A stretch of 64,000 nt of DNA from Cellulosimicrobium cellulans. GTDB taxonomy: Bacteria > Actinomycetota > Actinomycetes > Actinomycetales > Cellulomonadaceae. The DNA lies in contig NZ_VEGH01000001.1 in the NCBI RefSeq assembly GCF_007679345.1, forward strand, positions 310,001 through 374,000, in the 5' to 3' direction. The notes below the pieces were generated by a model that saw only the letters and a program-made list of their open reading frames with translations, was not told the origin of the DNA and did not search any database. Below are positions 2,369-21,100 of the stretch, piece after piece. Every line of letters starts with the position of its first letter. The first letter of the stretch is position 1. Position numbers and translations under genes: made by a program.

Positions 2369-5062
2369 TCAGGCCGCGGCCGCGGCGGTCCGCTGCCGGC
2401 GACGGTACGCCGCCGCGGTGAGCAGCGCCCCGAACAGCAGCAGCGCGACGGCGTAGCCGACCGCGTCCCCGGGCTCGGCGCCCGTGGTGGCCAGGCTGCC
2501 GGATGCGGCGTCGCACTCGACCTCCGCGCCGAGCGGCAGCGTGAACGACACCGGGTCGAGCGCCGCGCCCGCGGTGTAGAACCCCTGGAACACGGTCGCA
2601 CCGGCCTGGGTCAGCGTCGCCGGCACGCCGGACCACGCCACCTGCGCGGCGCCCGAGGAGGCCGAGCCGGCGGACAGGTCCAGGGTGGCGATCGCCACGC
2701 GGGACGAGCCGGACGGGCTCGCGACGGTCATCGTCAGCGTCGCCGACGAGGCGCTCGTGACGCGGACCGTCGGGTTCGAGAACGTCAGGTCCAGCTGACC
2801 GGCGTGCCCGGTGAACTGCACGCCGCCCGACCAGGACGTGGCGCCGACGGCGCCCGCGGTGTTGTAGCGCCCGGTCCCGCCGGACCAGGTCCACGGGCCG
2901 GAGCCCGCGACGCCGGACGCGCTGATCGAGCCGTTCGCGACCGGGCCGGTCACGTAGCCGCGGAACGAGTCCCGCACGCCCCAGGTGAGCGACGCCCCGG
3001 ACACGGCCCGGGCCACGCAGGTCGGCGCCGCCGCCTGCACGGTGATCGGGAACTCGAGCGTCTGACCCGCGCCGACCAGCACGAGCGTGTGCCTGCCCGC
3101 CGGCGTGGACGCCGGGATGGTGACCGTCGCCGCGACCGTCCCCGACGCGTCGGCGGTGAGCGTGGCCAGCAGGACCGGGTCGGAGTGCAGCTCGAGGCGG
3201 ATGCCGCCCTCACCCGCCCCGAACCCGTTCGCCGTGAGGGTGAGCTCGCCACCGGCGACGACCGCGCCCGCGGCGTTCAGCCCCTGGAGCTCGCGCACCG
3301 GCGCCGGCTCGGCGTCGCCGCCGCCGGGCAGGGTCGGCGTCGTCGGGACCGTCGGCGTGGTCGGGACCGTGGGGGTGCCGCAGCCGGTCGCAGCGCCGAG
3401 CGGCAGGGTGAACGACACGGGGTCCAGCGCGGCACCGGCCGGGTAGAACCCGGCGAACGCCGTGCTGCCCGCCGCGGTCAGCGTCGCGGGGACGCCGGAC
3501 CAGGCGACCTGCGCGGCGGTGGACGCCGCGGTGCCGCCCGACAGGTCGAGCGTGGCGACCTCGACGCGCGTCGCGGGCGCCGTGCCCGAGGACACCGCCA
3601 TCAGCAGGGAGGCCGTGGTGGCGCCGGTGACCCGCACCTCGGGGCTGGCGAACGTCAGGTCGAGCGCGCCGTCGTGGCCGGTGAACCGGACGCCGCCGGA
3701 CCACGCGGCGGTCGCCAGGCCGGCCGCGTCGACCTGCCCGGCGCCCGAGGACCACGTCCAGGGGCCGGAGCCGGACACGCCGGTGGTGCTGATCGAGCCG
3801 TTCGCGATCGGGCTCGTGATGTAGGAGCGGAACGACTCGCGCACGCCCCAGGAGAGGGTCGCGCCGTCGATCGCGACGCACGTCGGGGCGGGGGTGGTGC
3901 CGCCGTCACCGGGCGCGGGGGTCTCGCCGCCGCCGGGGGTACCGCCGCCCGGGGTCCCGCCGCCCGGGGTCCCGCCGCCGCCCGCGGCGAAGGTGATCGG
4001 GACGGCGCGCTCGTTGCCGGCCTGGGTCGTGCCGCCGGCGCCCGTGGTGAACACCGCGAGCGTGCCGCCCGCGAGGGCCTTCTCGTCCAGCGTCTCCTTG
4101 TCGACGGTGACCGTCCAGGTGAAGCCCGCGGTGCCGTCGGCGGCGAGGGTCCACTTCAGGTAGGGCGCCGTCTCGCTGACGCCCTGCACCCAGGCGGAGT
4201 AGGCGTTCGTGCGCGCCGCCGAGGCCGCGCCCTCCGACGGGCGCCACGTGCTCGCCAGCCAACCGACCTGCGCGTAGAAGCCGGCCGGCTTGCCCGCGTT
4301 CGGGCCGTAGAGCCCGAGCGCGCTGGTGTCGTAGCCGGACCCGGTGATCGTCAGGGTCGCGCCCGCGGGGTCGAGGCCCGTGGTCGGCGACACCGTGAGC
4401 GTCGGCTCCGCGGGGGTGCCCGGCTGCTCGGTGCCGGGTTCACCCGTCCCGGGCTCCCCGGTGCCGGGCTCACCCGTGCCGGGCTCCCCGGTCCCCGGCT
4501 CGCCCGTCCCGGGCCCGGTCCCCGGCTCCTCCGTCACGGGCTCGGCGAACGCGATCGGCACGGCGAGCTCGTTGCCCGCCTGCACGACGCCCTTGGCGCC
4601 GACCGTGAACACCGCGAGCTGACCGCCGTCGATCGCGACCGCGTCCAGGGCGGCCTTCGTGATCGTCTGCGTCCAGGTGAAGTCCGCCAGGCCGTCCTCG
4701 CCGATCGTCCACTGCACGTACTCGCCGCCGGTCGGGGTGTCCTCGACCGCGACGCGGTAGGCGTTCGTCCGCGCGGACGCGGCCGCGCCCTCCGACGGGC
4801 GCCAGGTGCTCGCGAGCCAGCCGATCTGCGCGTACATCCCGGCCGTCATCGGCCCCTGGGTGAACGCGGGGTCGAAGTCCTGGCCGGTGATCGTGATGGT
4901 CGCGCCCTCCGGGTCCAGGCCCGTCGTCGGCGACACGGTCAGCGTCGGCGTCGGCGCGGCGACCGCGGGGGTCGCGACGAGCGCGGATCCCGCCCCTACG
5001 ACCAGCGCGACCAGCGCGCCGGTGACCGCGCGCCAGGCGCGGGTCCTCGTTCCTCGGTGCAT
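2369..5062 (-). CDS. htaA: HtaA-type heme-binding surface protein with LATTG cell-wall anchor
   Basis: 897 residues. A signal peptide (1-36, cleavage after AVAA) is followed by two similar beta-rich modules (about 38-175 and 225-370) separated by a Glu-Pro-Gly-Thr-Gly repeat linker. Two HtaA domains follow (about 394-560 and 682-850; each with SWGVR/TWGVR near its start and GPWTW inside), with an Ig-like stretch between them. The C-terminus has LATTG at 857-861, a membrane segment and an Arg-rich tail, the layout of a class E sortase substrate. HtaA domains bind heme in corynebacterial heme uptake. A GAGGGAG ribosome site precedes the ATG, and a short GC hairpin (5077-5092) lies just upstream in the 74-base gap. 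It probably hands heme to the HmuTUV importer. Confidence 0.9.
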   Translation of the reverse strand: MHRGTRTRAWRAVTGALVALVVGAGSALVATPAVAAPTPTLTVSPTTGLDPEGATITITGQDFDPAFTQGPMTAGMYAQIGWLASTWRPSEGAAASARTNAYRVAVEDTPTGGEYVQWTIGEDGLADFTWTQTITKAALDAVAIDGGQLAVFTVGAKGVVQAGNELAVPIAFAEPVTEEPGTGPGTGEPGTGEPGTGEPGTGEPGTGEPGTEQPGTPAEPTLTVSPTTGLDPAGATLTITGSGYDTSALGLYGPNAGKPAGFYAQVGWLASTWRPSEGAASAARTNAYSAWVQGVSETAPYLKWTLAADGTAGFTWTVTVDKETLDEKALAGGTLAVFTTGAGGTTQAGNERAVPITFAAGGGGTPGGGTPGGGTPGGGETPAPGDGGTTPAPTCVAIDGATLSWGVRESFRSYITSPIANGSISTTGVSGSGPWTWSSGAGQVDAAGLATAAWSGGVRFTGHDGALDLTFASPEVRVTGATTASLLMAVSSGTAPATRVEVATLDLSGGTAASTAAQVAWSGVPATLTAAGSTAFAGFYPAGAALDPVSFTLPLGAATGCGTPTVPTTPTVPTTPTLPGGGDAEPAPVRELQGLNAAGAVVAGGELTLTANGFGAGEGGIRLELHSDPVLLATLTADASGTVAATVTIPASTPAGRHTLVLVGAGQTLEFPITVQAAAPTCVARAVSGASLTWGVRDSFRGYVTGPVANGSISASGVAGSGPWTWSGGTGRYNTAGAVGATSWSGGVQFTGHAGQLDLTFSNPTVRVTSASSATLTMTVASPSGSSRVAIATLDLSAGSASSGAAQVAWSGVPATLTQAGATVFQGFYTAGAALDPVSFTLPLGAEVECDAASGSLATTGAEPGDAVGYAVALLLFGALLTAAAYRRRQRTAAAAA
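4430..4530 (-). repeat. In-gene tandem repeat encoding an EPGTG linker
   Basis: About six to seven 15-base units (variants of GTGCCGGGCTCACCC on the plus strand) encode a Pro/Gly/Thr/Glu linker between the two N-terminal modules of the HtaA surface protein. Units differ at the third codon position, so the peptide is more conserved than the DNA. Copy number is likely to vary between strains. Confidence 0.8.
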
Positions 5063-5136
5063 CGTCTCCCTCTCCGGCCCGGGAACCCGGGCGATCGTGC
5101 GGGCCGCGCCCCCCGACGGGCCGCGGTCCTCCTCGG

Positions 5137-6006
5137 TCACTGCTGCTGGTCGTCCGGCGCCCCGCCGGGGGTCGCACCGGGCGCGCCCGGCTCGACCGCC
5201 CCGGCCTCCCGCCGGCGGCGGGCGCCATGGGCCGCGGCCACCCCCGCCACGGTCGCGCCCACCGCCGCCGCGGCGGCCGACCCGGCGACGACCCACGGCG
5301 CGGCGCCGGAGCCCTCCGCACCCGCGCCGTCGTCGACCGGGGCCGCGACGGCGGTCACCTCGGCGGTCGGCTCGGCGGTGGGCTCGGCAGGCTCGGCGGA
5401 CGGCTCCGCGCTCGGCGCGGCGGCGGCCGCGGCGTCCGGCGCGCCGAACGTCACCGGCGTGAAGGACTCGTTGTTCGCGTTCGCGACCCCGTGCGCGCCG
5501 ATCGTGATGACGCCGCAGGTCACCACCCGGCAGTCGACCTCCACCGTCCCGCCGTCGGCGTCCAGGGCCGTGATCGTCGCCCCGGGGATCGTGAGGTCCG
5601 TGGACCACGAGCCGTCCTCGGCGACCTCGCCCCCGTTGGCCTCGACGGCGGTGGTCGAGCCGGGGAACGCGACGAACCGCTGGTAGCCCGCGTTCTCCTG
5701 CCCCTGCACGTCGACGGCGTACCGGTACTGGACGCCGGACACGCCGCCGGCGGACGGCCGCCAGCCGTCGGACGCGGGGTCGACCCAGCCGAACAGCACG
5801 TAGACGCCGCCGAACCCGCCCGCGACCGACTGGAAGCCGGTGCCGGACACCTGCACGCGCGTCGGCGCGTCCGCCGCGGCGACGGCCTGCCCGCCCTCGC
5901 CGGCGACGACCACCTGGGGCGCGGCGGCGGCGGGTCCGGCGGCGGCGAGCGCGGCGGCGGCGGTCAGCGCGGCGGCCGCGAGGGCGCGGAGCGGCGTCGG
6001 GGTCAT
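5137..6006 (-). CDS. Exported membrane-anchored protein with one neocarzinostatin-like module (heme-locus companion)
   Basis: 289 residues. Signal peptide about 1-29, a single beta-rich module (about 30-195), an Ala/Pro/Glu-rich stalk, one transmembrane helix near 235-260 and an Arg-rich cytosolic tail; there is no sortase motif. The module resembles the two N-terminal modules of the neighbouring HtaA protein (shared WRPS and YRYAV/AYRVAV segments). It keeps a cysteine pair, VDCRVVTC, followed by GVITIGAHG; this recalls the neocarzinostatin fold (VDC...C followed by a beta strand). The ATG overlaps the hmuV stop (ATGA), so it is in the hmu operon. A heme or protein-partner binding role at the cell surface is inferred from context only. 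Confidence 0.8.
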   Translation of the reverse strand: MTPTPLRALAAAALTAAAALAAAGPAAAAPQVVVAGEGGQAVAAADAPTRVQVSGTGFQSVAGGFGGVYVLFGWVDPASDGWRPSAGGVSGVQYRYAVDVQGQENAGYQRFVAFPGSTTAVEANGGEVAEDGSWSTDLTIPGATITALDADGGTVEVDCRVVTCGVITIGAHGVANANNESFTPVTFGAPDAAAAAAPSAEPSAEPAEPTAEPTAEVTAVAAPVDDGAGAEGSGAAPWVVAGSAAAAAVGATVAGVAAAHGARRRREAGAVEPGAPGATPGGAPDDQQQ

Positions 6007-6827
6007 CGGGGGTCCTCCGGGGTGGTGCGGGCGGCGCCGTCGCCGGTGCCGGCGGTGCGGTCGGGCAGCACGAGCAGGTCGCCCGTGCGGGGGTGGACGA
6101 GGACCTCGACCGGGTGCCGGTAGACGGCGCCGAGCAGCTCGGGGCGCAGCACCGCGGCGGGCGCGCCGAGACCCCGCACCCGGCCACCGCCGAGCAGCAG
6201 CACCCGGTCGGCGTACGCGCCGGCGAGGCTGAGGTCGTGCAGGACGGCGACGACCGCGTGCCCCGCGCGGGCGAGCTCGCGCGCCTGGCCGAGCAGCATC
6301 TCCTGGTGCCGCAGGTCGAGCGCCGCGGTCGGCTCGTCGAGCAGCAGCACCGGCGTCGCCTGGGCCCGGGCGCGGGCGTAGGCGGTGCGCGCCTTCTCGC
6401 CGCCGGAGAGCGTCGGGAACCGGCGCTCGGCGAGGTGCAGCACGTCCGCGGCGGCGGCGGCCCCGGCCACCAGGCGGTCGTCGTCGTCCTCGGCGGCGGT
6501 GCCCCGCCAGGGCGCCCGGCCCATGCGGACGACCTCGGCGACCGTGAACGGGAAGCTCAGCCCGTGCTCCTGGAGCAGCACGGCGCGCCGGCGGGCCAGG
6601 TCGGCGGGCCTCAGGCGCTCGACCGGGGCGCCGTCGGACGTCACGGTGCCGCGGGTCGGGTGCAGGTCGCCCGCGAGCAGGCCCAGCAGCGTCGACTTCC
6701 CTGCGCCGTTCGGGCCGACCACCGCGAGCAGCTCGCCGGCCTCGACGCGCAGGTCCACGCCGTCGAGCAGCGTCACCCCGTCGACGTCGTACCCGGCCCC
6801 GGCCAGCTCGACCTCCGCCGCGCTCAC
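6003..6827 (-). CDS. hmuV: Heme ABC transporter ATP-binding protein HmuV
   Basis: 274 residues, the normal size for FecE/HmuV ATPases. Walker A GPNGAGKST lies near residue 35-43, the signature LSGGEKARTAYARA near 140, Walker B PVLLLDEPTAALD near 160 and the switch histidine in AVLHDLSLAG near 195. The GTG start at 6827 overlaps the hmuU TGA (GTGA) and the stop overlaps the next gene's ATG, so the gene is embedded in a coupled hmuT-U-V run. It energises heme import through HmuU. Confidence 0.93.
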   Translation of the reverse strand: MSAAEVELAGAGYDVDGVTLLDGVDLRVEAGELLAVVGPNGAGKSTLLGLLAGDLHPTRGTVTSDGAPVERLRPADLARRRAVLLQEHGLSFPFTVAEVVRMGRAPWRGTAAEDDDDRLVAGAAAAADVLHLAERRFPTLSGGEKARTAYARARAQATPVLLLDEPTAALDLRHQEMLLGQARELARAGHAVVAVLHDLSLAGAYADRVLLLGGGRVRGLGAPAAVLRPELLGAVYRHPVEVLVHPRTGDLLVLPDRTAGTGDGAARTTPEDPR

Positions 6828-7942
6828 GCCCAGCCCCCGGCCCGGCGGCGGGTGCGGCGGATGAGCCAGAAGAAGAACGGCCCGCCGACCAGGGCGGTCA
6901 GCATGCCGATCGGCAGGTCCGCATAGGCCACCGCGGTGCGGGCGACGAGGTCGGCGGCGAGCAGCAGCACCGCCCCGCCCAGCGCGCTCAGCGGCACCAG
7001 CGCCCGGTGCCCCGGGCCCACGAGCATCCGGACCAGGTGCGGCACCACGAGCCCGACGAACGCGATGATCCCGCAGAACGCCACGGCCGCGGCGGTGAGC
7101 AGGGCGACCGCGACGATGCTGACGACGCGCAGCCGCTCGACGTCGACGCCGACGTGCCGCGCGGCCCGCTCCCCGAGCGCCAGCAGGTCGAGGCGCCGCG
7201 CGACCAGCAGGGCCACGAGCAGCCCGACGGCGACGAACGGCGCGACCACGGCCACGTACTGCCAGCGGGTCCCGTTCAGCGAGCCCAGCTGCCAGAACAC
7301 GATCTGCTCGCGCGCCTGGGTGTCGGCGAGGAAGGTGAGGAGCGCGATCCCGGCACCGGCGACGGCGTTCACCGCGACGCCGGTCAGCACCAGCGTGACC
7401 ACCTCGGTGCGGCCGCCGGACCGGGCGAGCAGGTAGACCACCAGCGTCGTGACGAGGCCGCCGACGAACGCCAGCGCCGCCGAGGTGAACGCGCCGAGGA
7501 AGTTCAGGCCGAACACGATGCCGGTGCACGCCGCGAGCGCCGCGCCCGAGGACACCCCGACCACGCCCGGGTCGGCGAGCGGGTTGCCGAACACGCCCTG
7601 CATGACGGCGCCGGCGGTCGCGAGGGCGGCGCCCGCGAGCACGGCCATCACGACGCGCGGGAACCGGATGGTCCACAGCGCGGCGTCGCCGTTCGCGTGG
7701 CTCGGCAGCGGGCCGACGTCCAGGCCGAGCCGGTGCAGCACCGAGCCCAGGACCTCCGCGGGCGGGACGCGGAGCTGCCCAATGCCGGCGGCGATGACCG
7801 CGAGGGCGAGCAGGGCGACGACGAGGCCGATCCCGAGCGGCACGACGCGGCGGTGCCGGGTGCGGGCCGGGCCGGGCGCGGGGGTGCTCGGTGCGCCGGC
7901 CGGCGCGACCCGGTCCGCGCCGGGCTCGCGCAGCGCCGTCAC
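6824..7942 (-). CDS. hmuU: Heme ABC transporter permease HmuU (FecCD family)
   Basis: 372 residues with many hydrophobic segments, as in FecCD/BtuC-type permeases. Recognisable FecCD features are FPRVVMAVLAGAALATAGA and VFGNPLADPGVVGVSSGAAL in the N-terminal half and AFVGLVVPHLVRMLVGPGHR near residue 295-315, the last being the ATPase-coupling region. The GTG start at 7942 overlaps the hmuT stop and its own stop overlaps hmuV. It forms the membrane channel of the HmuTUV heme importer. Confidence 0.93.
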   Translation of the reverse strand: MTALREPGADRVAPAGAPSTPAPGPARTRHRRVVPLGIGLVVALLALAVIAAGIGQLRVPPAEVLGSVLHRLGLDVGPLPSHANGDAALWTIRFPRVVMAVLAGAALATAGAVMQGVFGNPLADPGVVGVSSGAALAACTGIVFGLNFLGAFTSAALAFVGGLVTTLVVYLLARSGGRTEVVTLVLTGVAVNAVAGAGIALLTFLADTQAREQIVFWQLGSLNGTRWQYVAVVAPFVAVGLLVALLVARRLDLLALGERAARHVGVDVERLRVVSIVAVALLTAAAVAFCGIIAFVGLVVPHLVRMLVGPGHRALVPLSALGGAVLLLAADLVARTAVAYADLPIGMLTALVGGPFFFWLIRRTRRRAGGWA

Positions 7943-9066
7943 GACGCGTCCGGCGCGTAGAAGGCCCGCGCGAGCGCGTCGAGCGTCTGCGCCGAGGTGG
8001 GCCCGAACGACAGCACCTGGGTGTCGGCCATGTCGACGATCCGCCGGTGCTCGCCCGCGGGCGTCTGCGCCACGGCGGGCAGCTGCTCCAGCAGCCCGTC
8101 GACCCCGCCGACCGACTCCAGCCCCTTGGTCATCACCAGCACCAGGTCCGGCTGGGCGGCGACCAGCCCCTCGTCGGTCACCGGCCGCATGCCCTGCCAG
8201 CCGATCTCGCCGGCGACGTCGACCGCGCCGAGCGCCTCGATCAGCGAGTCCGCGCCCGAGCCCTCGCCGAACAGGTAGGACACGCCGGCCTGGCCGCGCA
8301 GGTAGAGGAACACCACCCGCAGCCGGTCGGCCGGGTCGTCGGGCGCGAGCCGGCCGACCTGCGCGCGCACGTCGTCGATCGCGGCCTGCGTGCGCGCGGC
8401 GAGCGCGGCGCCCTCGTCCGGGAGCCCGACCGCCGCCGCGACCGACGCGATCAGGTCGCCGACCGTGCCGAGCTCACGGTGGGCGTCGACCACGACCACG
8501 GGGATGCCCGCGTCCCGCATCTGCAGCACGGTGTCCCACGGGCCGAGCGTGGTGTCGGTGATGATCAGCGTCGGCGCGAGCTCGAGGATCGCCTCGCCGG
8601 ACAGGTCGTGCCCGCTCGTCGTCACCACGGGCAGGTCGGCGATCTCGGGGAAGTCGGACGACGAGTCCCGGCCGACGACGCTCCCGCCCAGCCCGAGCTC
8701 GAACAGGATGCGGGACGTCGACCCGTAGAGGTCGAGCGCCAGCACCCGGCTCGTGTCGGTGACGGTGACCTCGGTGCCCTGCGCGTCCGTGAGCGTGACC
8801 GGCAGCGCGGGCTGCGGGTCGTCGGCCACGGGGTCCACCGGCGTCGCGGCGGCGACGGCGGTCTGCTCGCCCTCCCAGGCGCGGGGCTCGTCCAGCGGCG
8901 TCAGGTCGGCCAGCGCGGGCCGGTCGCCCGCGACCGCCGCCGTCCCGCCGGACGCCCCGGCCACCCCGGTGCACCCGGCGAGCGCTGCCACCACGACGGC
9001 CGCGACCAGGGCCGGGACCGACCGGAGGGCGGTGCGGCGGGGCGGGACGGGCGGGCGTGCGGGCAT
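7939..9066 (-). CDS. hmuT: Heme-binding lipoprotein HmuT
   Basis: 375 residues. A lipoprotein signal ends in LAGC (Cys about 32), followed by a low-complexity linker and a TroA/FecB-like fold (RVLALDLYGSTSRILFELGL, then APTLIITDTTLGPW and GIPVVVVDAHRELGTVGDLI). I chose the ATG at 9066 because AGGAG lies 10 bases upstream of it; a GTG at 9102 is possible but has no comparable site. It is the first gene of the hmuTUV run and lies behind an iron box. It should capture heme from the surface proteins and deliver it to HmuU. Confidence 0.93.
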   Translation of the reverse strand: MPARPPVPPRRTALRSVPALVAAVVVAALAGCTGVAGASGGTAAVAGDRPALADLTPLDEPRAWEGEQTAVAAATPVDPVADDPQPALPVTLTDAQGTEVTVTDTSRVLALDLYGSTSRILFELGLGGSVVGRDSSSDFPEIADLPVVTTSGHDLSGEAILELAPTLIITDTTLGPWDTVLQMRDAGIPVVVVDAHRELGTVGDLIASVAAAVGLPDEGAALAARTQAAIDDVRAQVGRLAPDDPADRLRVVFLYLRGQAGVSYLFGEGSGADSLIEALGAVDVAGEIGWQGMRPVTDEGLVAAQPDLVLVMTKGLESVGGVDGLLEQLPAVAQTPAGEHRRIVDMADTQVLSFGPTSAQTLDALARAFYAPDAS

Positions 9067-9129
9067 GACGAAGCGACTCCTGAGCGGGTGAGGCTCGCGC
9101 ACGAGGGCGCTCCGAGCGGGCGCCGTGGC

Positions 9130-14167: not shown

Positions 14168-14210
14168 GACACGTCGAGCGAGCATCCGGCGGATGCTCGC
14201 TCGACGTGTC
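14168..14210. terminator. Perfect 43-bp palindrome between convergent genes (element A, copy 1)
   Basis: The two 21-base arms are exactly complementary around a single central G at 14189; the arms contain ACACGTCGAGCGAGCATCCG and its complement. It lies between the stop of the MFS gene (14127) and the stop of the oppositely oriented CDF gene (14267), so it can act as a bidirectional terminator. A diverged copy occurs at 51062-51108. Confidence 0.7.
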
Positions 14211-14266: not shown

Positions 14267-15301
14267 TCAGCGCGCGTCCGCCCCCGCGCGGCGGTCGTCC
14301 TCGCCTGGGGGCGCCGCGACGCCCGGCAGCATCTCCTCGGGCAGCTCCTCGACCGGCACCACCACGAGGTCCTGCACCTTCCAGTCCAGCGCCGTCGCGG
14401 CCGCCCGCGCCTCGGCGAGCTCCCGCAGCCCGGGTGCCCGGCCCGCGCGCGGGACCACGAACGACTCGACGTGGAACACGTGCCCCTGGTCCCGCACCCG
14501 CGAGCGCGCGTCCTGGACCCAGGGCAGCGCCCGGAGCCGCTCGTCGATCGCCCGGTCGAGCGGGTGCGGCTCGTCGCCGTCGACGGTCGTGGCCCGGGCG
14601 TCCATGAGCGCGCCGGCCGCGACCCGCAGGTTGCCGACGCCGTCGCGCAGGATGCTGACCGAGATGAACAGCGCCGCCGCGGAGTCGGCCCACCACAGGC
14701 CGGCGCCGATGCCGAGGATCCCGACGACCGAGCCGAGCGCCGTCATCCAGTCGGCCTTGTTCATGTCGGCGTCCGCGTAGAGCACCCGGTCGTGCAGCGT
14801 GCGGGCGAGCGGCATCTTGGCCCGCCCGAGCAGCACCGGCGGGATCCCGGTCAGGACCATCGCGCCGATCATCGGCCAGCCGGCCCAGAACACGTGGTCG
14901 CCCAGGTGCATCACGCCGACCGGCGGGTGCTCCGCGGCGAGCAGCCCGCTGCCGGAGTCGACGACCAGGAACGCGCCCATGGTGAGCAGCGCCGCCGCCG
15001 CCACGAGGTGCCCGACCCCGACCGACCGGTGGTACCCGTAGGGGTGCGCGGTGGTCGGCCGGCGCCGCGCGAACCGCACGGCCACCAGGAAGGAGATCGG
15101 CGGGATGAAGGACAGCAGGTCCTCCGTCCACGCCGCCTTCATCGCCTGGGAGCTGCCCATCACCAGGTATACCAGGGTGACGCCGACGACCAGGAACGCG
15201 ATCGTGCCCCAGGCCAGCCGGACGGCCCGGCGCAGGGCCGCCGCCTGCTCCTCCGGCAGCTCCGTGTGACCGAACGTGGCGGTCGTCCCGGGCGCGCTCA
15301 C
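14267..15301 (-). CDS. Cation diffusion facilitator family transporter
   Basis: 344 residues. About six hydrophobic segments (starting near 25) are followed by a cytosolic C-terminal domain of about 100 residues (LDRAIDERLRALPWVQDARSRVR, VFHVESFVVPRAG), as in CDF exporters. The metal-site motif in the fifth helix appears as YADADMNKADW, while the second-helix site reads TEDLLSFIPP, so metal preference cannot be assigned. The GTG start at 15301 overlaps the stop of the upstream lipoprotein gene (GTGA), which makes the two coupled. It probably exports a divalent metal. Confidence 0.88.
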   Translation of the reverse strand: MSAPGTTATFGHTELPEEQAAALRRAVRLAWGTIAFLVVGVTLVYLVMGSSQAMKAAWTEDLLSFIPPISFLVAVRFARRRPTTAHPYGYHRSVGVGHLVAAAALLTMGAFLVVDSGSGLLAAEHPPVGVMHLGDHVFWAGWPMIGAMVLTGIPPVLLGRAKMPLARTLHDRVLYADADMNKADWMTALGSVVGILGIGAGLWWADSAAALFISVSILRDGVGNLRVAAGALMDARATTVDGDEPHPLDRAIDERLRALPWVQDARSRVRDQGHVFHVESFVVPRAGRAPGLRELAEARAAATALDWKVQDLVVVPVEELPEEMLPGVAAPPGEDDRRAGADAR

Positions 15302-15774
15302 GGCAGCACGTCCCGGTGGTTCTCGAGCAGGAACGTCTCCAGCCGGACCAGGAACGCGTTCTCGCCGAGCGGCGCGGCCATCACGTGCGGCTCGGGCGCG
15401 CCGTGCTCGTCGGGCACGGTCGTGTACGGCGTGGTCAGCGCCGCCCGGGCGGACCACGGGGACCGCCCGGTGAAGCCGCCGACGACGAGGTCGAGCTCGC
15501 CCGCCTCCAGGTCGCCGATCAGCCGCTCCTCGCTGCCGACGGTCCAGTCGACGTCGGCGTCGAGCGTCTCCGCGAACTCGGCGACCACCTCGGCCTCCAG
15601 GCCGGACGGCGGTGCGCCCTCCTCGACCACGGTCCACGGCGGGTTCGCCGTGATCCCGACGCGCAGCGCGTCGCCGGTCACCCGCTCGAGCGTGCCGTCG
15701 GGGTCGGCGGGGAACCCGCCGGAGCACCCCGCGAGCAGCGCCGCGGTCAGCAGCAGTCCTGCGGTGCGTCTCAT
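15298..15774 (-). CDS. Miniature solute-binding lipoprotein (SBP_bac_3-like, one lobe short)
   Basis: 158 residues. A lipoprotein signal with lipobox LLAGC is followed by GTLERVTGDALRVGITANPP, GLEAEVVAEFAETL and LIGDLEAGELDLVVGG, which match the first lobe of amino-acid-type binding proteins, and then directly by a terminal helix segment (ENAFLVRLETFLLENH). The central second lobe of the usual 220-residue domain is missing, so it may not bind in the usual clamshell way. The start could also be the GTG at 15801; neither has a clear ribosome site. It is coupled to the CDF exporter, and no ABC permease is nearby. Confidence 0.75.
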   Translation of the reverse strand: MRRTAGLLLTAALLAGCSGGFPADPDGTLERVTGDALRVGITANPPWTVVEEGAPPSGLEAEVVAEFAETLDADVDWTVGSEERLIGDLEAGELDLVVGGFTGRSPWSARAALTTPYTTVPDEHGAPEPHVMAAPLGENAFLVRLETFLLENHRDVLP

Positions 15775-15818: not shown

Positions 15819-15868
15819 CCGCGCTCCTCCGGCGGGCCGGAGGAGCGCGGTGACCCCCCGGGGGGTCA
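15819..15868. terminator. Two adjacent perfect palindromes at the end of the large surface-protein gene
   Basis: Arms of 15 bases (15819-15833 and 15836-15850) pair perfectly around a GG, and immediately next to them TGACCCCCCGGGGGGTCA (15851-15868) is a perfect 18-base palindrome. The TGA stop of the surface protein (15866-15868 on the minus strand) lies inside the second palindrome. There is no clear T-tract. It probably ends the 5.2-kb transcript or protects its 3' end. Confidence 0.7.
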
Positions 15869-18800
15869 GCCGTGCCGGCGACCGAGCCGCGCGCTCAGCG
15901 CCAGGCCGCCCAGCCCGATCAGGACGACCGCGGCCGCCAGCAGCCCGAGGCCCGTCCCCGTGACGGCCAGGGCGCCGCCGCCCGGCGTGGCCACGACGTC
16001 CGCCCCCGCGGGGGCGCCGCCGCCGACCGGGTCGCCGCCCGCGGGCGGGTCACCGGGGTCACCGGGGTCCCCCGGGTCCCCGGGCTCACCGGGGAGCGAC
16101 GGACCGAGCACCCGCACCAGCCCGGCGTCCACCGTCGGGTCCACGTAGTCCGCCCGCGCCCCGTCCCCGGGGCCGACCGGGCGCACCCGCGGTGCGCCCG
16201 CGCCGAGCGTGACCTCCTGGGTCCAGCCGGTGGCGTCGGCGTCGGAGTCCTCGGCCGCGTCCCCCCGGCGCGGCCCGGTGAACCCGTACCGTCCCGCCAG
16301 GTCGCCGTCGAGCACGAACTGCACCCGGTACGTGCCGGCCGGCAGCAGGTCGAACAGGTACCGGCCGTCGGCGTCCGTGGTGGTGGTCGCCACGGGCTCG
16401 TCCGATCCGGCGGCGTACAGCCGGACCGTCACCCCGGCGACGCCCGGCTCGCCCGCGCCCTGGAGGCCGTCACGGTCCTCGTCCAGCCACACCCGGTCGC
16501 CCAGGGCGTAGGTCCGGTGCACCGCGACGCCCGCCCGGTTGGGCTCGAGCGTCTCGTGCTCGAGCCCGGCGGGGGTCACGCTGGCGGTGGTCACCACCAT
16601 CGTGTTCCACGCCGGCGCGTCGACGTCCGCCGCGGCGACGTCGTAGGCCGTCGCGGACCGCGTGCGGAACGTCGCCGTGACGGTGTCGCCCGGCCGGAGG
16701 TTCTCCGTCGACAGGTCCAGGTCGACGCGCAGGCCGCGCACCCGGGACAGGTCGTCCACCTGGTCCGCCGGCGTCCAGACGTCCGCGGCGCAGCCGGTGC
16801 CGAACGGGTCCGCCGACCGCGGGTCGCCCGTGTAGGTGCACGTCGCGCCGTCCAGCAGGTACGACACCGTGGCCTGCGCCCCGTCCGGCAGCCCGGTGAG
16901 CTGCAGGTCGCCGAGGTACTCGGTCGCCCACACGCTGCCGCGCGCGCTGGTGCTCTGGGACCGCGACGTGCCGGTGTCGCCCGCGAACGGGAGCACGTCC
17001 ACCAGCGTGGCGCTCGCCGTGGGCAGGTTGCCCGTGTTGGTCACGCGCAGCCGCCAGGTCTCGGTCCCGCCGGGCTGCGTGCGGACGAGGCAGGGCGTCC
17101 GGTAGAACCCGTCGGCCGACACGCACTCCTGGCCGCTCGCCGAGGTGTTCACGACCCCGGTCGGGGTGGCGCCGGGCGCCAGGTCCTCGGCGACGTCCTT
17201 GACCCGCAGGTAGTTCGGCAGCGCCACGACGTCGATCCGCGCGGTCGCCTCCCGGGTGAGCCCGTCGGCGGACGACAGGACGAACCGGTTGGTGAGCTCC
17301 GTGCCCGCCGGGGTCCCGGCGCGCACCGCGAGCGGAACGGTGACCACCACCTGCTCGCCCGGCATGAGCCGGGTGCCGGGCGGGAACGTCACGCGCACCT
17401 CGCCCCCGTCGACGACCACGGACGGCGCCGCGCCCGCGATGGCCGCGTCCTCGGGCGTGATGGCCACCGCGGCGGCGCCGTACGCGTCGGGGTCGTAGAC
17501 GAGCTGCGGCCCGGCGGCGTCCGCGGGCAGCACGTCGGCCAGCACCGGGTCCACGATCGGCGCCGTGCCCGTGTTGGTCGCGGTGAGCCGGAACGGGAGC
17601 CGGGAGCCGGGGCCCGTGGTGGTGGTCCCGGGCGTCTTGGTCACGGTGGCGTCCAGGACGCCGTCCGTCACCTCGTAGGTCGCCAGGGCCGGGTCCAGGA
17701 CGACCGGGCTCGGCTGGTGCTCCGCCTGCACGGTCCCGGTGACCTCGTTGGTCAGCGTGCCGGCCGGCACCTCCGCCCCGGTGCTGCGCAGCGTCGACCG
17801 GGGGCTGAGCGCGAAGACCGCCGTCGGGCCCTCGAACCCGCCGACCTGCCGGTTGGCGAACCACGAGCCCGCGGGCGCCCGGAAGGTCACCCGCACGCCG
17901 GTGACGTCCCGCCCGGAGGTGCCGTCCGGCAGCGCGGCGGCGCCGTCCGGCAGGGGCGGCATCGTCGTGCTCACGCCGGCGGGCAGCGCGCTGCTGACCG
18001 GCGCCGTCCACGCGCCGTCGACGCGGTACTGCACGTCGGCGGCGTAGCCGGCCCCGTCGGCGGCGGTGACGCCCGCGAGCGCCTCCAGCCCGACCAGGTC
18101 GAACGCGTCCCAGAACGCCTCCGAGGTGTCCTCGAGCACGTAGGTCGCGGGCCGGCTCACCGCCGCGTCGCTGACCCGGCGTGCGCTGAGCGACAGCCGC
18201 ACGGTGCGGTCCTGCGCGGCGTACCGCGTCCCGGTGCCCGGCGAGACGGACTTGGCGAGCGCGCCGTCGAGCGGCTGCAGCGCCTCCGGGTACAGCACCG
18301 TGGCCGCCTGCGCGACGTCGTCCGGCGTTCCCGGGCCGAGGTCGCCGACCAGGGTGTTCGTGAGGGTGGTCGACGCCGGGGCCTCGGCGGTGCCCGTGAT
18401 CGGGACGCCGGACCGGGTCTGCGCCCGGAGCACGGTGTCCGCGACCACGACCAGCGCGGCGCCGTCCGGCAGGGTGCCGTCGACGCGGGCCTCCGCCGAC
18501 ACCACGTCGGCGAGGTCGGCCGGGGACAGCGCCGCGACCGCGGCCGCGGACCCGAGGTCGTGCCGCACGCCGCCGTCGGCGCCGCGCAGGACGACCCGCA
18601 CGTCGTCGGTCCCCGCCGGGGCGGTCACGGAGAGTCGGGTCAGGTCGACGTGCTCGAAGGTGCTGCCGTCGTCGGTCGCCGGGTCGGGGTCGACCAGCCG
18701 CAGCGAGCCGACCGGCACGCCGGACACGTTCTGCACCCGCATGGTCAGCCGGTTGGCCGGCCGGTCGGCGCCCGGTCCGGCGTTGTCGACGCCGATGAGC

Positions 18801-21100
18801 GCCGAGGCGTCGCGCCAGGACTTGCTCGCGTCCACCCGCCGGATGTCGAGCGGGGCGTCGCCGGGCCCGAAGGTCGCCGTGTCACCGGCGTCGGACGGAC
18901 CCGTCAGGCCGGCGCCGACGCCGCTGCCCGCGGCCTCGACCGCCACGGTGTTGCGCAGGGCGGTGCCCGGGGCGACCGCCTCGTCGAGCACCAGCACCAG
19001 CGCCACCCGGGGGGTGAAGGTGCCGTCGATCGGCAGCGAGGCGCCGGTCGGCGTGTAGACCACGCGGACGCCGTCCGCGCCGGCCGGGACGGCGAGGTCC
19101 AGCAGCGACGTCGCGTCCGTGGTCGGGCCCGCCAGCGTCACCCAGTCGCCGCCGGTGCGGGCCAGGACCTCGGCGCGCGCCCCCGCGGGCACCTGCACGG
19201 AGCCGACCCGGTCGAGCGCCGCCGCGTCCCACAGCGACGACCCGGCGTCCCCGCCGGCGGCGTCCTCGATCACCAGGGACCCGACCGGGACGGTGGTGTC
19301 GGCGGACACGCGACCGGTGAGCGTGGCCACCAGCTCCTGGCCCGGCGCCCCGGGCAGCGGCGCGCCCTGGGCCTGCTGGGTGAGCGACTTGCTCGCGGTG
19401 GTGACGACCTGGCGCGGGACCACGGTCAGCCGCGCGGACGCCGTCCGCGCCGCCGCCGGGGTGCCGTCGGCCGCCTCGCCGTCGACCGCCACCTCGTTCG
19501 TGAACGTGCGCACCGGCGACCAGCCGGCGTCGGTGGCGACGCGGAACGGCACCGTCGCCGCGACGCCCGGGGCGAGCTCGCCCCGGTACTCGACGACGAA
19601 GCCGGTCACGACCGCGCCGGCCGGGGGCGCCGGCCAGGTGGAGGTCCCGCCGGAGGGCGGCTGCACCGCGACGGGGCCACCCACCCCGGTGCCCAGGAAG
19701 GTCACCGTGGCGCCGTCCGCGCCGGCGGGCCAGGCCGCCGCGTCCACGGCGCCCGAGCCGTCGGTGCCGAAGCCGTCGAAGCCGAGCAGGCCGGCGGCCG
19801 GGTCGCCGAGCGGGCCGGCACCGGGCGCGGAGGGCTCGGCCACGCGCAGCAGCGACAGGGCGGAGTTCGAGGCGTTGCGCGCGGTGAGCCGGACCACCGA
19901 CGTCTGCCCCGCCACCACCTCGGCGCGCGCCGCGCCGTCGAAGGTCTTCCCGGCGGCGACCTCGACGGTCACCGGGTTGATCTGGAACGCGGCGGACGCC
20001 GTGCCCGTCGCGTCGCCGCGCGGGGTCGTCAGCGCGGCCGACGCGGTGTTCGGCACCCGGGTGGTCGCGTCGCGGGGGGCGGTGCCCGCCTGCCCGAGCA
20101 CCAGGGCGACGGAGCCGGCGGCCCCGCCGGGGACGAGGGTGCCGTCCGCGGTGCCGTCGCCGGCGAACCGCAGCCCGACCGCCGAGACGGTCGCGAGATC
20201 CACGCCGCCGGCGTCCAGGGTCGCGCCGGGCGCAAACGGCCCGACGGTCACGGTGCCGCCCGGCGTGGTGAGGTCGATCGACAGCCCGGTCGCGCCCTCC
20301 GGCGCGGTCCAGGCGCCGAGGCCGCGCAGGACCAGCGGCGTGCCGGGGCCGAAGGCGGCGGGCGTCCCGGCGGCCGGGTCGGTCACGGTCAGCGCCGTGG
20401 CGGCCACGGGCGAGGTGTTCTGCGCGCCCAGGGTGACCGTGACGTCGCCGGGGTCGCCCGCGACCTGGTCGGCCGGCGCGACGCGCTTGGTGACGGCGAC
20501 GCTCGGGGTCACCGGCACCGTGATGCCCACGGTGGCCGGTGCGCTCACCGGGTCGGCGTTGCTCGCGGTGACGTCCGCGGTGTTCGTCACCGACTTCCCG
20601 TCCCAGGACAGCGGGGTCCCGGCGGGCAGCGTGGTGCGCAGCAGCACCGACACGCTCTGGCCCGCCGCCAGCCCGACGACGCCGGGGTGGCTCGGGTCCG
20701 TCTCGCGGAACGCGACGCGGGCGGTCGCCCCGGACACCGCGACGACCGACTGGCCCGTCTGCTCGGCCTGGACGGTCACGCCGTCCGCGTCCAGCACGAA
20801 CGGCTCCGGCACCGCGTCCTCGAGCGCGACGTCGGCGCACATCGCGACGATCGACTCGCAGGTCACCTCGACGGTCCACGTGACGCCGTCGCCCGGCCGC
20901 GCCGTCGTCGCCGAGGCCGTCTTGCGGACGGCCAGCGTCCCGCGGTCCCCGTCCGCCGCCTGCGCGGCCTGCGGCGTCGCCACCGCCAGCACCACGCTGA
21001 CCAGCAGCAGCGCGACCACCGTCGCGACCGCCGTCAGCCGCTCCAGCATCCCCCGTGACGCGCCGCGCGCGCCTGATCCCCAGCTCATCCCCGTGCCCAT
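15866..21100 (-). CDS. Very large LAVTG-anchored surface protein with DUF11-like repeats and an SdrD B-like domain
   Basis: 1744 residues. A signal peptide (about 1-48, ending AAQAA) is followed by a long series of beta-sandwich repeats of the DUF11/isopeptide type (for example LAVRKTASATTARPGDGVTW and VTKTPGTTTTGPGSRLPFRL). A Cna/SdrD B-like domain lies near 1545-1670 (GDRVWLDEDRDGLQGAGEPG, then TDADGRYLFDLLPAGTYRV), then a Gly/Asp/Pro repeat linker. LAVTG at 1711-1715, a membrane helix and an Arg-rich tail form a class E sortase signal. It is probably an adhesin or stalk displayed on the wall. An ATG at 21088 is an alternative start. No sortase gene is in the window. Confidence 0.9.
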   Translation of the reverse strand: MGTGMSWGSGARGASRGMLERLTAVATVVALLLVSVVLAVATPQAAQAADGDRGTLAVRKTASATTARPGDGVTWTVEVTCESIVAMCADVALEDAVPEPFVLDADGVTVQAEQTGQSVVAVSGATARVAFRETDPSHPGVVGLAAGQSVSVLLRTTLPAGTPLSWDGKSVTNTADVTASNADPVSAPATVGITVPVTPSVAVTKRVAPADQVAGDPGDVTVTLGAQNTSPVAATALTVTDPAAGTPAAFGPGTPLVLRGLGAWTAPEGATGLSIDLTTPGGTVTVGPFAPGATLDAGGVDLATVSAVGLRFAGDGTADGTLVPGGAAGSVALVLGQAGTAPRDATTRVPNTASAALTTPRGDATGTASAAFQINPVTVEVAAGKTFDGAARAEVVAGQTSVVRLTARNASNSALSLLRVAEPSAPGAGPLGDPAAGLLGFDGFGTDGSGAVDAAAWPAGADGATVTFLGTGVGGPVAVQPPSGGTSTWPAPPAGAVVTGFVVEYRGELAPGVAATVPFRVATDAGWSPVRTFTNEVAVDGEAADGTPAAARTASARLTVVPRQVVTTASKSLTQQAQGAPLPGAPGQELVATLTGRVSADTTVPVGSLVIEDAAGGDAGSSLWDAAALDRVGSVQVPAGARAEVLARTGGDWVTLAGPTTDATSLLDLAVPAGADGVRVVYTPTGASLPIDGTFTPRVALVLVLDEAVAPGTALRNTVAVEAAGSGVGAGLTGPSDAGDTATFGPGDAPLDIRRVDASKSWRDASALIGVDNAGPGADRPANRLTMRVQNVSGVPVGSLRLVDPDPATDDGSTFEHVDLTRLSVTAPAGTDDVRVVLRGADGGVRHDLGSAAAVAALSPADLADVVSAEARVDGTLPDGAALVVVADTVLRAQTRSGVPITGTAEAPASTTLTNTLVGDLGPGTPDDVAQAATVLYPEALQPLDGALAKSVSPGTGTRYAAQDRTVRLSLSARRVSDAAVSRPATYVLEDTSEAFWDAFDLVGLEALAGVTAADGAGYAADVQYRVDGAWTAPVSSALPAGVSTTMPPLPDGAAALPDGTSGRDVTGVRVTFRAPAGSWFANRQVGGFEGPTAVFALSPRSTLRSTGAEVPAGTLTNEVTGTVQAEHQPSPVVLDPALATYEVTDGVLDATVTKTPGTTTTGPGSRLPFRLTATNTGTAPIVDPVLADVLPADAAGPQLVYDPDAYGAAAVAITPEDAAIAGAAPSVVVDGGEVRVTFPPGTRLMPGEQVVVTVPLAVRAGTPAGTELTNRFVLSSADGLTREATARIDVVALPNYLRVKDVAEDLAPGATPTGVVNTSASGQECVSADGFYRTPCLVRTQPGGTETWRLRVTNTGNLPTASATLVDVLPFAGDTGTSRSQSTSARGSVWATEYLGDLQLTGLPDGAQATVSYLLDGATCTYTGDPRSADPFGTGCAADVWTPADQVDDLSRVRGLRVDLDLSTENLRPGDTVTATFRTRSATAYDVAAADVDAPAWNTMVVTTASVTPAGLEHETLEPNRAGVAVHRTYALGDRVWLDEDRDGLQGAGEPGVAGVTVRLYAAGSDEPVATTTTDADGRYLFDLLPAGTYRVQFVLDGDLAGRYGFTGPRRGDAAEDSDADATGWTQEVTLGAGAPRVRPVGPGDGARADYVDPTVDAGLVRVLGPSLPGEPGDPGDPGDPGDPPAGGDPVGGGAPAGADVVATPGGGALAVTGTGLGLLAAAVVLIGLGGLALSARLGRRHG

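Follow-up and report, generated by a model that had tools for sequence, protein, structure and literature searches.

A CDF-family transporter coupled to a one-lobed, solute-binding-protein-derived lipoprotein as a putative two-component transporter

The window, that is, the whole 64,000-nucleotide stretch of Cellulosimicrobium cellulans DNA analysed here, contains a coupled pair of genes, one for a one-lobed lipoprotein related to solute-binding proteins (SBPs), hereafter LP, and the other for a transporter of the CDF family (Table 1). We lean towards the view that the two products would constitute a two-component transporter, in which LP acts as a dedicated extracytoplasmic subunit of the CDF protein. 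The basis for this view is the architecture of both proteins, the overlap of their genes, their co-occurrence, the selection acting on them, the existence of two-lobed relatives and the predicted fold. The CDF protein, a member of a distinct CDF clade, would provide the membrane part, and LP, lipid-anchored at Cys17, would sit on its outer face, perhaps on a lengthened TM3-TM4 hairpin. We infer that both proteins are in physical contact, that LP assembles, stabilises or gates the CDF protein, and that the latter exports a cation. The ancestor of LP would have been a two-lobed family 3 SBP, whose ligand-closing second lobe is proposed to have been lost because lobe 1 and its anchor are all that the CDF protein requires.

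Table 1. Positions of the LP-CDF gene pair and of neighbouring features in the window
Feature	Position	Strand	Details
LP gene, one-lobed SBP-like lipoprotein	15774-15298	minus	158 aa; ATG start; lipobox LLAGC with Cys17
CDF-family transporter gene	15301-14267	minus	344 aa; GTG start; six TM helices (predicted) and a cytoplasmic domain
GTGA stop/start overlap, LP stop with CDF start	15301-15298	minus	
LP linker in the place of lobe 2	15388-15423	minus	approximately LP residues 118-129
CDF TM3-TM4 loop, H125-M144	14870-14929	minus	candidate LP docking site
Perfect 43-bp palindrome	14168-14210		just downstream of the CDF gene
Peripla_BP_2 binding lipoprotein	7939-9102	minus	domain scan
FecCD-like permease	6824-7942	minus	named by eye
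ABC locus: Peripla_BP_2 lipoprotein, FecCD-like permease, ATPase, large repeat-bearing surface proteins	2369-9102	minus	permease and ATPase named by eye
Surface-protein gene	15866-21100	minus	1744 aa; SdrD_B and DUF11 domains; directly upstream of LP

Residues 37 to 119 of LP matched the Pfam family SBP_bac_3 with 37.2 bits (gathering cut-off, 26.4), and the CDF protein matched Cation_efflux with 67.4 bits (gathering cut-off, 26.6); its score with the TIGR01297 CDF model was also 67.4, below the cut-off of that model (82.35). The initial annotation had described LP as a first lobe plus a final helix, with the second lobe absent, and its gene as joined to that of the CDF protein by a GTGA overlap. 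The overlap was located, and the architecture held: the coordinates were right and, since 24 aligned homologues have the same layout, it is not due to chance. In LP the hinge strand TTPYTTV leads through a short linker to HVMAAPLGEN and the final helix. The closest named relatives, from Cellulomonas hominis CS1 and Cellulomonas sp. ACRRI, showed 98-99% LP identity.

The accompanying statement that no ABC permease is near stood as far as amino-acid-type permeases are concerned, none of which is adjacent, but a FecCD-like permease with a Peripla_BP_2 protein was found some 5-8 kb away. The locus to which these two belong appears to be a self-contained ABC uptake system of another SBP family, probably for heme/iron. 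As for the palindrome that follows the CDF gene, eight copies with up to 3 mismatches were found in the genome and none of a reversed control pattern, so we take it to be a dispersed palindromic element or a shared terminator. A surface-protein gene similar to the one upstream of LP also adjoins the pair in Cellulomonas sp. IC4_254 (L036).

The AlphaFold2 model of LP (mean pLDDT, 84.6; pTM, 0.77) consists of a binding-protein lobe 1, a pair of short hinge strands with a short linker between them, and the final helix. Its best Foldseek matches were structures of TmArgBP domain 1 (7a99, 6y16, and 6gpc; TMt, 0.77-0.79), with LAO domain A (6xks) ranking lower. In a Z-score structure comparison, TmArgBP domain 1 gave values of 17.2-17.4 over 123-127 residues (rmsd, 2.8-2.9), in a tie with intact ArgBP chains, for which Z reached 17.8. 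Like LP, both TmArgBP domain 1 and LAO domain A have lobe 1 and the returning final helix, with a short linker for lobe 2. However, they were engineered in the laboratory from two-lobed ABC binding proteins, the TmArgBP one being able to bind ligand, whereas LP is a natural, lipid-anchored protein without the ligand Arg, paired with a CDF protein. Similarly, LP is homologous in lobe 1 to SBP family 3 (AncQR, ArgBP, CDT), with both the sequence and the fold of this lobe, but differs from that family in having one lobe instead of two closing ones, Trp107 in the place of the ligand Arg, and no cognate ABC permease in the operon or adjacent to it. Isolated lobes of an SBP do fold, according to the available text of PMC10601554; in that case, however, the lobes are experimental halves of ribose-binding protein, another PBP, which do not bind alone and reassemble into a heterodimer. 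According to the same text, a shortened SBP for which a function was proposed had been reported before (citing Bae 2018).

The LP alignment of 24 one-lobed sequences, from which the near-copies L034, L035, L037, and L039-L041 and the broken L023 and L024 were left out, contains 25 invariant columns, including P22, D24, P25, G27, T28, L29, W77, D95, P106, W107, and G137-E138-N139. The motif P22-x-D24-P25-x-G27-T28-L29 lies directly after the lipid anchor, and G137-E138-N139 directly before the final helix. The GEN motif was present in 51 of 52 LPs, the other one showing GES. A lipobox-like Cys ahead of the DP motif was detected by script in 50 of the 52; L050 was a mis-hit in which the Cys is visible, and L059 truly lacks it. 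In SBP family 3, the ligand carboxylate is held by an Arg; by alignment to 5jos, the position of this Arg is taken by Trp107 in LP, and the Trp was found in all 24 sequences. For its part, the PPW cleft motif is gone from the LPs of L042-L044 and from the one-lobed alphaproteobacterial LPs, although two-lobed Sulfitobacter LPs retain NPPW or NSPW. Both observations argue that the function shared by LPs cannot be solute capture in a closing cleft, and that their common part would be an anchored lobe 1 beside the CDF protein.

The same observations weigh against an alternative that we consider unlikely, namely, that lobe 1 of LP alone binds a small organic ligand and hands it over to the CDF protein or regulates the latter, the two-lobed LPs being ordinary binding proteins, in analogy with TAXI-GltS. 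CDF proteins are exporters rather than importers, and lobe 2 has proved dispensable, neither of which suits such a role. Nevertheless, isolated TmArgBP D1(F57W) binds arginine with a Kd of 3.4 uM, as stated in the available text of PMC7589609, and TAXI-GltS itself provides an example of a lipoprotein SBP whose translation is coupled to that of a secondary transporter (described in the available part of PMC12344293). The alternative is also favoured by the mere existence of two-lobed LPs and by the unusual site of the CDF protein described below.

The initial annotation had gone further and suggested that LP captures or senses metal outside the cell and is linked to export. That LP informs or feeds the CDF exporter in this way is, in the light of the following data, quite improbable. 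The partner does belong to a family of metal exporters, and H130 and M132 are kept in most one-lobed LPs, but H130 is replaced by Arg, Leu, or another residue in some rows, and besides the lipobox Cys there is no Cys or His among the invariant residues of the 24-sequence alignment, hence no conserved Cys/His cluster; in addition, the ligand Arg is replaced by Trp. No riboswitch was detected at the gathering threshold over 19 loci, where the matches were limited to three tRNAs and one RNase P, nor in the window stretch, where one sub-threshold ribosomal-leader match fell inside a neighbouring coding region. An RNA leader was thus rejected as a clue to the substrate. The neighbouring genes were rejected as well, because they vary among loci: in the seven neighbourhoods listed, inspection by eye revealed neither a third gene nor a metal regulator recurring near the pair. 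The RND pump beside the Sulfitobacter pontiacus pair scored best as the multidrug type, not the heavy-metal type. Two weak hints of a metal link are a gene annotated as a metal-sensing repressor some 2.3 kb from the Sulfitobacter indolifex pair and, in Sphingobium, the presence of another CDF gene next to two copies of the one described here.

The coupling of LP to the CDF protein, also advanced in the initial annotation, proved to be strong and widespread, and a functional link between the two is therefore likely. When 150 genomes of the family were scanned, 19 contained a strong LP match (E of 2.5e-42 or lower, with the following match at 3.5e-9) and 19 contained the CDF (E at most 1e-25), with 18 in common; as in the other scans, these genomes are related by descent and do not represent independent events. 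Among 394 genomes of the class, LP and CDF were found in the same 15, adjacent in all of them. A scan of the contigs of the genome collection with LP gave 11 loci, each with the CDF gene next door. When 396 genomes of the phylum were searched with the CDF alone, 11 CDFs were obtained, two of which were already known, and LP was directly upstream in all nine new ones. Within further genomes of the class of G720, the CDF was found in 1 of 39. Finally, 8 of 15 plasmid records found were examined; of the other seven, six are nearly identical to the S. pontiacus record and one is a distant Cytobacillus match. Six of the eight carry the uninterrupted pair (one from Arthrobacter and five alphaproteobacterial), and the other two carry a CDF without its N-terminus and without LP. 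The pair thus occurs in other actinobacteria, where the initial annotation had proposed to look for it, and also in Alphaproteobacteria.

The 4-nt NTGA overlap was found in 49 of 52 loci from Actinomycetota and Alphaproteobacteria (L020, L023, L024, L085, L113, and L114 left out), a sample that is not unbiased, since some of these loci were found through LP. The pair is kept without the 4-nt overlap in L079, L082, and L083, and no fused LP-CDF gene was present among the loci. The CDF frame was open from TM2 to the stop in 50 of the 52, the exceptions being L014, which runs off the locus, and L058. The latter corresponds to G500, one of the 15 class genomes, where the LP frame is open and the CDF frame has an in-frame TGA some 84 codons past the TM2 motif, either a pseudogene or a sequencing error. 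In G016 (L020; single-contig assembly) LP is intact and the first ~22 codons of the CDF gene run straight into its last codons, as if an internal deletion had removed the entire membrane core. Both genes are broken in G128, which together with G016 accounts for the mismatch between the LP and CDF sets of the family, and G131, which falls under the limit for a strong LP, retains a remnant of LP but lacks the CDF. Along with the two plasmid CDFs that have lost both their N-terminus and LP, we read these cases as joint decay of the pair, in favour of the two-component view.

The overlap could also mean that LP acts only in cis, its translation priming that of the CDF gene while the protein itself has no direct role with the CDF protein. 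We regard this as very unlikely, given that coupling alone would not preserve the residues, the anchor, and the fold of LP, and that the pair persists in three loci where the 4-nt overlap is missing.

The transporter has the Cation_efflux domain, six TM helices, and the C-terminal cytoplasmic domain of a CDF-family protein, the TM and domain pattern being taken from a weak structural model (mean pLDDT, 68.8) whose best matches were ZnT3, YiiP, and ZnT8. The window sequence alone matched FieF (E value of 1.4e-4), and a profile of 21 aligned CDFs gave no match to solved structures at an E value of 0.001; this alignment left out the near-copies L034, L035, L037, and L039-L041, as well as L036, L024, which is broken, and L014, in which the frame continues up to the locus end. 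The protein resembles FieF/YiiP and the ZnT proteins in its domain, over the cut-off, and in the matches of its model, but it differs from described CDFs in belonging to a discrete clade, in its A-site, and in having LP as a neighbour. With regard to the first point, no best hit fell between E values of 1e-25 and 3e-118 in the 396 genomes; a broken copy in the family scores 1e-60.

Alignment to FieF placed the A-site of the window protein at E60/S64/M180/D184. Among 45 CDFs of the clade, E60, D61, D177, and M180 were invariant, residue 64 was Ser in 36, Ala in 4, Gly in 4, and Thr in 1, and residue 184 was Asp in 43 and Asn in 2. The quartets of the CDF clades described in the available text of PMC5703985 are HD-HD, DD-HD, ND-DD, DD-DD, EN-HD, and HH-DH, and the E-(S/A/G/T)-M-(D/N) site fits none of these. 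The substrate may thus not be zinc. The TM3-TM4 loop comprises 20-21 residues in all 45 CDFs, with a 6-residue insertion compared to FieF. It is placed on the extracytoplasmic side by the CDF topology and modelled as a beta-hairpin, and its candidacy as a docking site for LP is speculative because of the weakness of the model.

Two further CDF genes were observed. The same genome contains a second, divergent CDF-like gene (L110; Cation_efflux, 47.9 bits) whose TM5, by eye, seems to be without the usual HxxxD. In addition, a plasmid record of Variovorax sp. PBS-H4 (L085:5001-5870) carries a truncated CDF gene of the Actinomycetes type, 62% identical to that of the window; it adjoins GAF/ANTAR genes and may be actinobacterial DNA or contamination.

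Homologues of LP with a complete second lobe would, according to the initial annotation, make the window protein a deletion derivative, and two-lobed homologues were found beside the same CDF, although with a somewhat shortened lobe 2. They occur in 10 Actinomycetota loci (L075-L083, outside the class, and L059, inside it) and on two Sulfitobacter plasmids (Sulfitobacter sp. W027 and S. indolifex), the one-lobed alphaproteobacterial LPs being those of S. pontiacus and Sphingobium. The distance from the DP to the GEN motif was 178-181 residues in all 12 two-lobed LPs, compared with 102-125 residues, mostly 112-118, in 39 of the 40 one-lobed LPs; in the remaining one, L050, the pattern was mis-hit. 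Relative to the usual one-lobed length there are about 65-70 additional residues, and these align with AncQR and ArgBP over the first half of lobe 2, which identifies this middle part as a second lobe. We therefore take the one-lobed LP to be a derived form that has lost lobe 2.

To follow the lobe state, a tree of 45 chosen CDFs was used (L012-L014, L016, L034-L036, L046, and L058 not included). The partners of one-lobed LPs from Actinomycetes formed one clade (support, 100/99), those of two-lobed LPs from Actinomycetota another (95/89), and those of Alphaproteobacteria, with both lobe states, a third (99/93). Other CDFs of the same genome, tried as an outgroup, sat on branches as long as 2 to 10 changes per site and split the one-lobed clade, so the tree was left unrooted. 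Two changes of lobe state were needed on it. A single one-lobed clade was borderline rejected (AU p of 0.049), for a group that was named after the tree had been seen. Since the binding-protein superfamily is two-lobed, the simplest reading is two losses, and most likely lobe 2 was lost independently in Actinomycetes and in Alphaproteobacteria.

The dN/dS values against five relatives were low for both genes, 0.07-0.35 for LP and 0.11-0.27 for the CDF gene, and point to purifying selection on LP. Considering the LP values together with the clade-wide state, one-lobed LP does not look like a decaying accident or a broken gene but like a stable, selected form of the clade. The idea that it is a decaying or neutral SBP remnant, present in the CDF operon by chance, can hardly be upheld. 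Lobe 2 has indeed been lost relative to the two-lobed homologues, and a few genomes contain broken copies, but the dN/dS values, the 25 invariant columns, the extent and probable repetition of the one-lobed state, and the frequency of the overlap largely refute it.

Returning to the two-component reading, a more detailed version of it can be put forward only tentatively. The CDF clade with a His-free, Met-containing site would obligately use an outside subunit derived from an SBP; this subunit would have shed its ligand-closing lobe at least twice, and its former cleft or its anchor face would dock on the CDF protein and gate it.

The individual parts of the pair belong to known families, and the nearest published idea is that of TAXI-GltS (BP0403/BP0402). 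As described in the available part of PMC12344293, that system also comprises a lipoprotein SBP coupled to a secondary transporter that is neither TRAP nor ABC, the coupling being seen in the case of LP and CDF as a gene overlap. That overlap occurs in unrelated organisms, as expected of a coupling of the TAXI-GltS type. The differences, going by the same source, are that the TAXI SBP, with extra domains, binds glutamate, that its partner is a Na+/glutamate symporter working in uptake, that the gene order is reversed, and that gene fusions are known. The families differ as well, the pair described here being assigned by Pfam to SBP_bac_3 (lobe 1) and Cation_efflux, not to TAXI and GltS (ESS). 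In the literature surveyed, consisting of titles and abstract openings of mainly open-licence papers, a CDF paired with a binding protein is not named. The pair would extend SBP-dependent secondary transport to CDFs and to a one-lobed partner.

Some members of the pair are probably mislabelled, or carry an empty label, in existing records. A divergent one-lobed LP of Sulfitobacter pontiacus (L086:4558-4995) is annotated as enoyl-CoA hydratase, which is probably wrong, and another from Sphingobium (L087:4573-4995) is annotated as a hypothetical protein, a label that is probably empty.

To our knowledge, CDF transporters are usually regarded as dimers that work alone. If the proposed reading is true, a CDF clade with an extracytoplasmic subunit would alter the study of CDF regulation and direction. 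The one- and two-lobed partners of the same transporter would amount to a natural experiment on the roles of SBPs besides solute binding, and one-lobed LPs would offer real proteins for comparison with the single-lobe constructs employed in research on how the SBP fold arose.
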